Positions 2 through 29,948 of a DNA stretch of 32,046 nt are shown one piece after another. The notes under the pieces were generated by a model that saw only the letters and a list, made by a program, of their open reading frames with translations, was not told the DNA's origin and searched no databases. Origin of the DNA: a virus; the IMG/VR virus record IMGVR_UViG_3300018080_000427, positions 1 through 32,046 of that record; one strand, written 5' to 3'. Positions within the stretch are counted from its first letter, which is position 1. Each line of letters opens with the position of its first letter. The translations under genes were made by a program, and so were the position numbers.

Positions 2-535
2 AGAATATATCCTGAACGTATCTTAAAAAGGGAGGCGGACAATTATAAAAAAATGATTCAGAAAGGAACTTCATTATCTGAATTAAATCACCCTGAATCT
101 TCTTTAATTGACCTTGATAGAGTTTCTCACATTATAACTGATATATGGTGGGACGGACCTGTATTAATGGGTAAATTAAAATTATTGACTTCACCAGGTT
201 TCCATGAAAGAGGAATTGTTTCTACAAAAGGAGATATGGCGGCTAACTACCTAAGACAAGGTGTTACATTAGGTATATCATCAAGAGGTGTTGGCTCACT
301 TAAAAAAGTTGGGGAACAAAATGAAGTACAGGATGATTTTGAATTAATATGTTTTGACTTGGTTTCCTCACCATCAACACCAGGCGCTTATTTATTTAGT
401 CAACCTGAAGAAAGATTTAACTTTGAGGAAAATCTTGATGAAGAAAAAAGAATGAGAGCTGAGAGAGAAGTTGGACCTTCTGCTAACAAATCTATTGACT
501 TAATGAAAAGATTAACCGATTATTTAGGTTATTAA
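2..535 (+). CDS. 21: Prohead core protease, T4 gp21-like (5' partial)
   Basis: The reading frame is open from base 2, so the true start lies before the window; the ATG at 53 is probably internal. The first visible residues (RIYPERIL...) resemble the N-R/G-R-x-YP segment near the start of phage prohead proteases. The GISSRGVG segment (about 273-296) matches the conserved region carrying the catalytic serine of the S77/gp21 family; the catalytic histidine expected upstream was not assigned. In T4 this protease is assembled into the prohead, degrades the scaffold and trims capsid and internal proteins after L/I-x-E. The following scaffold and capsid genes are in the T4 21-22-23 order, which supports the call. 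Confidence 0.88.
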   Translation, partial: RIYPERILKREADNYKKMIQKGTSLSELNHPESSLIDLDRVSHIITDIWWDGPVLMGKLKLLTSPGFHERGIVSTKGDMAANYLRQGVTLGISSRGVGSLKKVGEQNEVQDDFELICFDLVSSPSTPGAYLFSQPEERFNFEENLDEEKRMRAEREVGPSANKSIDLMKRLTDYLGY

Positions 536-4486: not shown

Positions 4487-5173
4487 ATGAAAAAGATTAT
4501 TTTAGACCAAAATACAATTAATGAAATAATTAGATTGTATAATGAAGAAATGTTAGGTTCGCCTACTATATCTGAAAAAATAGGAATTCATAAAACTGTT
4601 ATAGTTAGAATTTTAAAAGAAAATGGTGTTAATGTTGGTAAATCGGGTAGAAAATTTAAAGGAGGTAAATCTGAGAGTGATAAGAGGTATTATAAAAATA
4701 ATAGAGATAAGAGATTGAAATACTTTTCAGAATGGCAAAAAGAAAACAGAGAACATTTAAACAATTACCACAAAGAATGGAGAGAAAAGAATATTGATAA
4801 ACATCGAGAAAATAAAAGAAACTACGAAAGAACTCGTAAAGCAAACGACCCCCTCTATAAACTAATCTCCAATTTCAGAACCGCAATATATCAAGTTCTA
4901 AAAGAAAATAATGTTGATAAGAACGGACATTATTTTGAAATTTTAAAGTATTCTCCTGAAGAGTTAATATCTCATTTAGAAAATCAATTTAAGGGGGGTA
5001 TGACGTGGGATAATTATGGTGAGTGGCATGTTGACCATATATTGCCAATAACGTCATTTAACATACAAGAAATTGGTGACAACGAGTTTATGAAATGTTG
5101 GTCACTTAACAATCTACAACCAATGTGGGGTAAGGAAAACATTAAAAAATCCAACAAAATACTTATTTCATAA
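4487..5173 (+). CDS. Free-standing HNH homing endonuclease
   Basis: A 228-residue protein. Residues 25-48 (SPTISEKIGIHKTVIVRILK) look like a helix-turn-helix DNA-binding segment. Residues 55-120 are basic, with repeated K-E-W/N-R-E patterns. The C-terminus carries the HNH nuclease motif: H181-V-D183-H184-I-L-P, then W205-S-L-N-N-L-Q-P, then K216-E-N-I-K-K-S-N-K. This arrangement, with YSPEELISHLENQF before it, is typical of phage HNH nucleases that nick or cut DNA and spread by homing. The gene sits alone between the capsid terminator and a virion-type gene, with its own upstream motif, as expected of an insertion next to a conserved gene. The likely target is the capsid-gene region of relatives lacking it. 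Confidence 0.88.
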   Translation: MKKIILDQNTINEIIRLYNEEMLGSPTISEKIGIHKTVIVRILKENGVNVGKSGRKFKGGKSESDKRYYKNNRDKRLKYFSEWQKENREHLNNYHKEWREKNIDKHRENKRNYERTRKANDPLYKLISNFRTAIYQVLKENNVDKNGHYFEILKYSPEELISHLENQFKGGMTWDNYGEWHVDHILPITSFNIQEIGDNEFMKCWSLNNLQPMWGKENIKKSNKILIS

Positions 5174-27796: not shown

Positions 27797-29029
27797 TTAT
27801 TTAATTATTGATTTGTAAAATTCTGCTCTTTGTTTAGTTACTACATTTAAATCATATTTGTCTTTAACTGTTTCATAAAGACGTTCACCCATGTCAGTTA
27901 TCAAGTTTGGGTTATTTACCAATTTCTTAATAAATTTAGCCCAATCACTGTGATTTCTATTTTCATTAACTAACATTGCATTACCATCAACAAACTCTCC
28001 ATTTTTTAAACAATGTTTTAGGTCAATAGTATATGGTCCAATGTCTGAAGCAATTAATGCTTTTTTATAAAATCCTGCCTCAATAACTTTAAGTTGAGAT
28101 TTCATTCTATTAAACATATGATTTTTAATTGGTGCTAATGAAATATCAAATTTAGAATAATTCATAGCATATGATGTAACAGGTTTAGTCCAAACACGAA
28201 GATATGGTAATTCATTATTACTAATATATTCTTCTTCTTTATATTTTAATAAGAAATTTTTATAATCTTCATCAATAATTTTATAATTGTCTGTGAAAAT
28301 TTCTTCATATCTAGCCCAAACAGTTTCGTGTGGTAAAATATCTCTTCTTCTTTGTTCCCCTGTTTGTGGATTAATCTCAGTTACTGTACCTCTTGTGTCA
28401 AAACCACATATTACATACTGAACTTTTTTGTTAAAATCTATACCATTTTTAGATATAAATCCTTCCAATAGTTTTAAATCGTGTAAGTGTGATGACCCAC
28501 CTAACCACCCAATTCTAATTTTTTCAGATTCAACATTAGATTGATTAAATTGAGGTTCTTTAGGATTAATCGCATTTGGGAAAACAACAACATTTTTATT
28601 TATTTTTTTAATTTCATCCGCGAATAAACTTGTTGTTGTTGTAACATAAGACGCTTCTTTTAAATTTGCAATTATTTTTTTATCAATACCGTCCTTAACG
28701 ATTAGTTGATGTATTGGGTGTTCTTTTGTTGGTAACCAATAATCATCAATATCAACAATAACCGTAATTCCTAATTTTTTTAACCATTTTATAATTTCAG
28801 GTGATGCGTTATAATTATTACCGATACTTCTGTGCGCATGAACTATTTGGTATTTTTTCCAATAGTTAATATCATTTATCTTTGGTTCATAATCAATATC
28901 AATATGAAAATCATCAGGATATAGATTTTGTAACTTAATATGGGGGTCAGTCGAGCGAAATTTACCTCAACCAACCCCACTCCGGTCAGAAGGGAGAACC
29001 AAAACTCTGATTCTTTCACGACCATTCAT
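27797..29029 (-). CDS. GT4-like glycosyltransferase interrupted by an in-frame TGA at codon 21
   Basis: Reading from the ATG at 29029 gives MNGRERIRVLVLPSDRSGVG, then TGA (28969-28967), then GKFRSTDPHIKLQNLYPDDF and onward in the same frame to a stop at 27797: about 409 residues apart from the TGA. Downstream features are those of a GT-B glycosyltransferase: IVHAHRSIGNN, TVIVDIDDYW, VVVFPNAINP, IRIGWLGGSSHLHDLKLLEG, and SQLKVIEAGFYKKALIASDI, with the conserved Glu. The frame is intact after the TGA, so it is under selection or was interrupted recently. A TTG at 28468 would give only the C-terminal half and is unlikely. If GGT-TGA is skipped, the protein would read SGVGKFRS continuously. Read as it stands, the gene is a pseudogene; a bypass or readthrough is the alternative (see findings). 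Confidence 0.7.
28943..28978 (-). other. 13-bp mRNA hairpin spanning the in-frame TGA
   Basis: On the minus strand, GGGGTTGGTTGAG (28978-28966) pairs with CTCGACTGACCCC (28955-28943) around a 10-base loop: 10 Watson-Crick and 3 G-U pairs. The same positions on the + strand would give three A-C mismatches, so the full stem exists only in the coding-strand RNA. The TGA lies in the 5' arm. The 90 bases around it (28941-29030) are about 50% GC against a background near 30%. Confidence 0.85.
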
Positions 29030-29033
29030 GGGG

Positions 29034-29948
29034 TTATCGTTTGTCATATTTTTTAATTAGTTTATTTATGATGGTATTATCCTCTTTTAAATCAGATTCC
29101 CATACCACTTCTAAATTATAACCATAACTTCTTATTAAGTCAATTTTGTTTTTATCATAATCCCATAATTCTTTTGCGGTTTTACCCTTTACTTGATTAT
29201 AATAATCTGCATTATATTTTTTTGGATTACAATGCCAATAATCACCATTAAATTCTATAATTAAATTTAATTTTGGTATAAAAATATCACAAATTTTAGT
29301 CTCTATTTTCAATGAATGGGTTACACTATAACCTAATTTTTTAATTTCTAAAATTATATCTTTTTCTTTTTTTGACCTAATTACTGATTTGATTTTCCCT
29401 AACTTTCTTGTTTCTTTCATTTTATCTGACATAATTTTTCTGACATGCTCCATTTCCCCATTATCCCATTTATTTTTTAAGTTTTGCGAGGCTTTTTTCC
29501 TATGGTCAGGGTTTGCCATAGAGTTTTTATGTCCAGCACCTTTACCTTTACGACTTTTGGATATTTTTTCTAACGATTCTTTTGTATGTTTTTTACCATA
29601 AAAATGATTACCTTCACCAATGAAAGATTTACCCATACATTTAATACACTTATTTTTCTCTTTTATGGTTTTATAATAATTTCTACAAGTGATTGTTGGG
29701 TTATTTGATGATACCACAACATTGACACCACATTTAGGACATTTCCTTAAAATAATATATTTCTCACCCTCTTTTTTAATATCTAACGATTTACATCTAT
29801 CTCGTTTTTTGGTGACATTGTGTTTTTTAAGTATTTTTAATATTGTTGGTTTTGATACATTTAGTTCTTTGGATAATATTAAAGAACTTTTACCCCCCAA
29901 ATACTCAGTAACAATATGTGACTCATTTAATTCTATTTTCTTACCCAT
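29034..29948 (-). CDS. Homing endonuclease, EDxHD (Vsr-like) type with NUMOD3
   Basis: A 304-residue protein. Residues about 20-45 (SSLILSKELNVSKPTILKIL) form a helix-turn-helix. C70-P-K-C73, C88, C101 and C104 could bind zinc. GEGNHFYGKKHTKESLEKIS (111-130) is a NUMOD3 DNA-binding segment common in homing enzymes. The C-terminal nuclease has I-C-D221-I-F-I, LIIE232FNGD236YWH239 and WDYDKNKIDLIRSYGYNL, the EDxHD pattern of Vsr-like homing enzymes. It has its own TATTTATA motif 17 bases upstream. It stops 4 bases before the glycosyltransferase ATG (TAA-CCCC-ATG), so it is a free-standing insertion at the 5' edge of that gene. Confidence 0.86.
   Translation of the reverse strand: MGKKIELNESHIVTEYLGGKSSLILSKELNVSKPTILKILKKHNVTKKRDRCKSLDIKKEGEKYIILRKCPKCGVNVVVSSNNPTITCRNYYKTIKEKNKCIKCMGKSFIGEGNHFYGKKHTKESLEKISKSRKGKGAGHKNSMANPDHRKKASQNLKNKWDNGEMEHVRKIMSDKMKETRKLGKIKSVIRSKKEKDIILEIKKLGYSVTHSLKIETKICDIFIPKLNLIIEFNGDYWHCNPKKYNADYYNQVKGKTAKELWDYDKNKIDLIRSYGYNLEVVWESDLKEDNTIINKLIKKYDKR

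Follow-up and report, generated by a model that had tools for sequence, protein, structure and literature searches.

An interrupted glycosyltransferase gene beside a homing-endonuclease-like gene

The stretch of DNA analysed here (the window, 32,046 nucleotides) is a 32-kb IMG/VR virus fragment of a T4-like phage, the capsid protein of which is nearest to those of an uncultured phage, Microcystis phage Mel-JY01 and Flavobacterium phage immuto. No tRNA gene was found within the window. On the minus strand a glycosyltransferase (GT) frame runs from position 29029 to 27797 with a single TGA (28969-28967), which is flanked on both sides by the same codon, GGT (28972-28970 and 28966-28964). This anatomy is directly observed, and the coordinates are those of a preliminary description of the DNA. 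The features of the locus are as follows, all on the minus strand.

29034..29948, minus strand: homing-endonuclease-like gene, 304 aa (Pfam NUMOD3 1.3e-6, MTES_1575 3.6e-4; PHROG homing endonuclease 3.1e-9)
28970..29047, minus strand: leader of the GT, first reading segment, 26 codons (MTNDNPMNGRERIRVLVLPSDRSGVG), ending with the take-off codon; the start is common to relatives
28973..29035, minus strand: 5' stem-loop (MFE fold) with its 3' arm touching the take-off codon; supported by covariation and absent from intact relatives
28970..28972, minus strand: proposed take-off codon GGU (Gly); all interrupted relatives have GGY or AGY here
28967..28969, minus strand: UGA stop codon right after the take-off codon; a stop there in 50 of 51 distinct loci
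28964..28969, minus strand: proposed bypassed stretch UGAGGU, 6 nt, landing codon included; missing from intact relatives, 5-44 nt elsewhere
28964..28966, minus strand: proposed landing codon GGU, same as take-off; take-off/landing pairs are GG/GG in 44 loci, AG/AG in 6 and AG/GG in 1
28949..28972, minus strand: take-off stem-loop with the take-off and stop codons, GGUUGAG (28972-28966) pairing with CUCGACU (28955-28949)
27797..28963, minus strand: second reading segment of the GT, KFRSTDPH..., 388 codons, resuming at AAA (PHROG 7162 glycosyltransferase 2.2e-45)

The patch from 28941 to 29036 has a GC content of 50%, as previously described, against 26% in the endonuclease gene and 27% in the remaining GT gene. 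Also as described, the endonuclease stop codon (29036-29034) lies 4 bases ahead of the ATG at 29029. That ATG had been taken as the GT start. It is in frame, but an ATG further upstream in the same frame (29047-29045), at which the GT gene would overlap the end of the endonuclease gene, is probably the true start, as an equivalent ATG starts the relatives. The endonuclease is composed of an N-terminal helix-turn-helix, CxxC zinc-binding motifs, a NUMOD3 motif and a C-terminal EDxHD/Vsr-like nuclease (IIEFNGDYWHCNP), the nuclease residues being invariant in the family alignment. Cutting of DNA by endonucleases of this family, the target and the immunity to cutting are inferred. Directly 3' of the major capsid gene, at 4487-5173 on the plus strand, the window has a further endonuclease gene (endonuclease VII/HNH-like, PHROG 1035).

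Among cultured phages no close homolog of the GT was found, the best matches being about 34% identical, and none of the prokaryote genome contigs among the matches listed in a pattern search encodes this GT.

Inserts, codons and RNA structures among relatives

A scan with the segment 3' of the insert identified 403 relatives in viral contigs, from which 80 loci were kept. Most relatives read an uninterrupted SDxxGVG-KFRS, whereas 9 of the 80 loci carry a junction insert with a stop codon. The preliminary description had predicted that a hop over 6 bases would restore SGVGKFRS; intact homologs indeed read GVG-KFRS and lack the two-residue insert, which agrees with the prediction. The set was extended by pattern scans, an endonuclease scan and scans with divergent GT queries starting 3' of the landing codon. 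None of these scans demanded a stop codon. GGN was imposed on both sides in the pattern scan; the GT and endonuclease scans were free of this condition and yielded both the Gly and the Ser classes. In total, at least 51 of 180 distinct GT regions, the window being one, are interrupted, all at the same residue. This observed recurrence comprises 23 distinct combinations of take-off codon and insert and extends over about 60 metagenomes (hand count from contig names).

The inserts vary in length (5, 6, 7, 8, 9, 11, 12, 13 and 44 nt), and a stop codon directly follows the take-off codon in all distinct loci except L037 (TGA 29, TAA 20, TAG 1), where GCT sits between take-off codon and stop (GCT TAA). 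Over all frames, stop triplets account for 7% in these genes, giving a P of about 1e-24 for their presence in 22 of the 23 distinct combinations, a value that is indicative only since the combinations are related. The take-off and landing codons are matched: in the Gly class (44 loci) GGC or GGT is paired with a landing GGN, and in the Ser class (6 loci) AGC or AGT occurs at both places. The sole mismatch is L220, with an AGT take-off and a GGC landing codon. Thus, the identity of the landing codon tracks that of the take-off codon, even though the protein needs no landing codon if the ribosome hops. Counting against a hop, landing on GGA or GGC after GGU, and passage from AGU to GGC in L220, would require wobble or two-of-three pairing.

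Closely similar leaders precede inserts of different length. The 66-nt leaders of L110 (11-nt insert) and L125 (12 nt) are identical (66/66), those of L290 and L238 (8 and 7 nt) share 92% and those of L219 and L094 (5 and 6 nt) 88%; within the Ser clade, related leaders are followed by inserts of 7, 8 and 9 nt. The same leader thus occurs with inserts in several frames, so that no single rule of readthrough or frameshifting fits, and this is the main ground on which we prefer hopping. Ordinary recoding, in the form of readthrough where the insert has 6, 9 or 12 nt and of a -1 or +1 frameshift elsewhere, would add 1-4 residues ahead of KFRS. The frame it needs is open in each insert inspected by eye, and in the window readthrough would yield GVG-X-G-KFRS, which a single sequence cannot exclude. 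However, a single signal would be required to cause three kinds of event (11 versus 12 nt behind leaders that are 100% identical, 7, 8 and 9 nt in the Ser clade, and 5 versus 6 nt), all three stop codons are in use, and the insert of L037 measures 44 nt and contains a hairpin. We consider recoding of this kind unlikely, although it is the alternative that survives best.

Several of the longer inserts (L097, L108, L110, L126, L139, L215) often end with AAAGG or CAAGG overlapping the landing codon, a purine run that is Shine-Dalgarno-like in appearance. In a remote GT lineage with the junction GVG-AYRMRWPH (L348, L353 and L354, also L215 and L218) the insert has 11 nt and the endonuclease gene is divergently oriented. 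Near-identical empty sites exist in this lineage (L349, L350, L356), and it possibly acquired the insert independently.

At the RNA level, the 5' stem of the window consists of two pairings, AACCCCAU (29035-29028) with GUGGGGUU (28980-28973) and UGGUC (29024-29020) with GACCG (28987-28983), and its 3' arm ends one base ahead of the take-off codon. A 5' stem is present in all interrupted loci examined that have a complete leader, with a mean duplex energy of -21.5 kcal/mol in 29 distinct interrupted leaders as compared to -3.4 kcal/mol in 51 intact ones (lowest -8.0). The stem is observed to covary among the interrupted loci. When arms were exchanged among 15 stem types the mean energy was -16.0 (sd 0.8), and the real value of -21.4 was reached in none of 20,000 permutations; relatedness is not wholly removed in this comparison, but the stem types used were distinct. 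The 5' stem is also found in the Ser clade, L314, L278 and the remote L215 lineage (-17 to -30), and decayed versions occur in three relatives that have no gap and still hold the leader extension (L258, L309, L257).

The take-off stem-loop can be extended to a 13-bp stem (28978-28966 with 28955-28943; GGGGTTGGTTGAG and CTCGACTGACCCC), which then competes with the 5' stem for GGGG. The preliminary description had noted this stem as a feature of the mRNA strand, and it is real: the region folds with -21.3 kcal/mol on the mRNA strand and with -12.1 kcal/mol on the complement. In the whole element of the window (-36.5 kcal/mol, z -2.35) the 5' stem-loop is directly followed by the take-off stem-loop with GGU and UGA. 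The hairpin is strong in the clade with UGA and 6-nt inserts (mostly -18 to -25) but weak elsewhere, the TAA clade having it only in a weak form or not at all. Its permutation test was weak (209 of 20,000), and therefore we treat the downstream hairpin as clade-specific. Hence, the stem holding the TGA exists as first described, but the universal structure of the element is the 5' stem, which had been overlooked.

Selection on the gene and mobility of the cassette

The frame downstream of the insert is open in 46 of 46 complete interrupted genes and comprises at least 370 codons. In comparable pairs the downstream dN/dS is about 0.05-0.24; the L238-L290 pair was left out because one member has an intein. 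These values indicate purifying selection on the downstream frames, also in loci with a decayed endonuclease gene. Because the cassette moves, the dN/dS values may partly cover divergence that is older than the insertion. No general reduction of synonymous divergence was found when leaders were compared with intact genes, and the leader's synonymous sites were accordingly excluded as evidence. At the protein level, K4, L8, P11-D13, G16 and V17 of the leader are near-invariant in 29 intact GTs. Since the hopped window protein is no direct translation of the DNA, a structural model was made of the intact homolog L055. The model matches the PDB GT-B enzymes MshA and BshA. Within the GT-B core, the leader supplies beta strand 1 (E5-10 of the model), and the insert comes between this strand and helix 1, just where the helix begins. 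As strand 1 and the near-invariant residues lie in the leader and the insert is at helix 1, a protein without the leader is unlikely to work. A continuous protein across the gap is inferred from the open downstream frames, the dN/dS values and the conserved N-terminus.

With a stop codon only 26-29 codons into the gene and the endonuclease gene reduced to a remnant in 9 of 51 loci, the GT could be thought to be inactivated by the cassette and its loss tolerated by the phages. The preservation of all complete downstream frames at low dN/dS speaks against such a dead gene, as do the near-invariant N-terminal residues and a stem that covaries and has decayed where the insert is gone, and we find this explanation very hard to maintain. 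Split genes are common beside homing endonucleases, and this counts for a further possibility, namely that translation re-initiates past the stop, so that the C-terminal part is made as a polypeptide of its own and pairs up with the leader peptide. However, the first in-frame ATG, GTG or TTG lies 165 codons past the insert in the window (4-213 in other loci), and the division would separate strand 1 from helix 1 of the GT-B core, so that re-initiation appears as improbable as gene death. A sequencing or assembly error, conceivable for the window alone as one metagenome contig, can practically be discounted in view of same-site inserts with covarying stems in 51 distinct sequences from about 60 metagenome datasets. 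The two rivals named at the outset, a recent pseudogene and a sequence error, have thus been removed by the recurrence, the open frames and the dN/dS values. Reassignment of the stop codon and selenocysteine readthrough were also considered and rejected: TGA and TAA are ordinary stops of other window genes, from which we conclude that the standard code applies without reassignment, and the inserts of relatives include lengths of 5, 7, 8, 11, 13 and 44 nt.

The linkage to the endonuclease, suggested earlier from the window alone, was upheld in unbiased scans with the GT as sole query. An upstream endonuclease of the window family, or its remnant, was observed in 14 of 16 interrupted and in 4 of 103 intact loci (remnants included; Fisher 6e-13). 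On the GT tree (176 rows, 49 interrupted) the trait changes 32 times, and in 19 independent pairs over supported branches the endonuclease changes in the same direction about 11 times and in the opposite direction about once. Empty sites are present in close relatives with 91-97% identity (L121/L032 96.9%, L290/L288 96.8%, L215/L349 93.9%), and when cassette bearers are compared with each other, sequence identity is highest in the leader and falls at the insert. Among intact genes of the KFRS type located beside a near-complete endonuclease gene, 11 of 12 lack GGT or GGC ahead of the junction, whereas 31 of 63 intact KFRS-type genes without such an endonuclease lack these codons there (p = 0.009 versus 11/12). 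This codon bias may hint that the target is the sequence for GVG|KFRS, but it is suggestive only.

Mostly shorter relatives of the endonuclease (about 245 aa) precede uninterrupted GTs in L192-L194, L196, L200, L203-L213, L230, L231 and L239; these GTs mostly have GGA or GGG instead of GGT or GGC at the junction, as if point changes protect them. A probable intein of about 380 residues was seen in the GTs of L198, L222, L225, L232 and L238 at GWLGGS|C(M/V)TPDTEILT..., giving frames of about 770 aa. The intein, which relatives such as L283-L286 lack, represents another mobile element, located at a further conserved site of the GT, in phages that also bear the bypass cassette.

Proposed stop-hop bypass and comparison with known systems

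In our opinion the locus very probably carries a mobile cassette, composed of an endonuclease gene and a stop-hop bypass element, at one exact site of the GT gene, a reading for which no protein or translation data exist and in which the hopping event and its efficiency are inferred. According to this proposal, the leader of 26-29 codons would be translated first. Once GGU (Gly) occupies the P site and UGA the A site, the peptidyl-tRNA would leave its codon, the mRNA would shift by 6 nt and the tRNA would re-pair at the second GGU, after which decoding would restart at AAA to give ...DRSGVG-KFRS..., as in intact relatives. The stop codon may supply the pause, and the 5' stem, closing behind the ribosome as far as the take-off codon, may aid take-off or the forward move; both roles are inferred. 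In the clade of the window the hairpin with the take-off and stop codons would probably contribute. The insert would split the presumed endonuclease target (the codons for GVG|KFRS), by which the host gene is inferred to resist cutting while its protein is still made. It also appears probable, with somewhat less confidence, that such frame-agnostic hop cassettes are widespread in phages, that nothing more than a short covarying 5' stem, a stop and a pair of matched codons (Gly or Ser) is needed for efficient hops of 5-44 nt, and that the cassettes are independent of T4 gene 60, have arisen or spread many times at this one site of the gene and serve the self-protection of the endonuclease.

The best comparison is T4 gene 60 with mobA.(PMC5009743, PMC11194080, PMC3014915) In the model for gene 60, the ribosome pauses at a Gly codon preceding a stop, the peptidyl-tRNA dissociates, a 5' stem completing behind the ribosome helps the forward move, and the tRNA re-pairs at a matched codon (PMC5009743, PMC11194080). 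Similar to the GT cassette, gene 60 has Gly take-off and landing codons, a stop right after take-off, a 5' stem-loop, an upstream homing endonuclease and relatives without the insert; the take-off stem-loop with take-off and stop codons is shared with the window clade. Gene 60 encodes a topoisomerase, whereas the cassette described here resides in an unrelated gene, and the hop is far shorter, with inserts of 5-13 nt (44 in one case) as compared to 50 nt. Unlike in gene 60, the stem of the GT family abuts the take-off codon, Ser versions occur and any of the three stops is used. The endonuclease is of the HNH type in the T4 cassette and of the EDxHD/NUMOD3 type in the GT cassette. The leader of gene 60 has 46 aa, that of the GT family 26-29 aa, conserved and with no KKYK motif seen, and the occurrence in one lineage contrasts with many lineages for the GT cassette. 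The earlier proposal of a cassette of the gene 60 type is thus strongly supported by comparison, but it is not a single minimal example, being a family with 5-44 nt inserts and Gly or Ser codons.

Bypassing was considered apparently unique to T4 gene 60 (PMC3014915). Shorter natural counterparts have long been presumed, but the examples given are limited to synthetic stop-hops, mitochondrial byps and unconfirmed cases (PMC5009743). We found no earlier report of a GT hop-cassette family in the full-text literature, subscription papers being outside this coverage. Synthetic stop-hops in E. coli use matched codons around a stop, with 9 nt read as one amino acid, and include exactly GGU UGA GGU (cited in PMC5009743); these are laboratory constructs, whereas the GT cassette is natural and has a conserved 5' stem and longer inserts. 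The Streptomyces phage Hau3 terminase and the Prevotella loescheii adhesin are candidate short hops in a phage or Bacteroidota, but they are single, poorly followed-up reports with UUA or a 29-nt gap, and no endonuclease cassette is described there (PMC5009743). The byps of Magnusiomyces capitatus mitochondria resemble what is proposed for the GT cassette in that many short inserts are bypassed, so that the genes stay functional, and take-off and landing codons are not always perfectly matched; 81 instances are given, reported to be independent of mRNA context (PMC5009743). In contrast to the mitochondrial byps, the GT cassette occupies one gene site in a bacterial virus and is accompanied by a conserved stem and an endonuclease.

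The case for programmed bypassing among bacteria and bacterial viruses has so far relied essentially on T4 gene 60. If the proposal is correct, the GT family would be a second, different case of a homing endonuclease travelling with a bypass element, and about 50 natural variants that differ in hop length, codon, stop and stem would allow the rules that govern take-off and landing to be tested comparatively. Seemingly broken genes in phage metagenomes may then be functional. The member nearest to T4 gene 60 in size is the 44-nt insert of L037 (positions 1200-1375 of that locus), which has its own CCCCCAC/GTGGGGG hairpin and is preceded by a different 5' stem, ACGCC/GGCGT.
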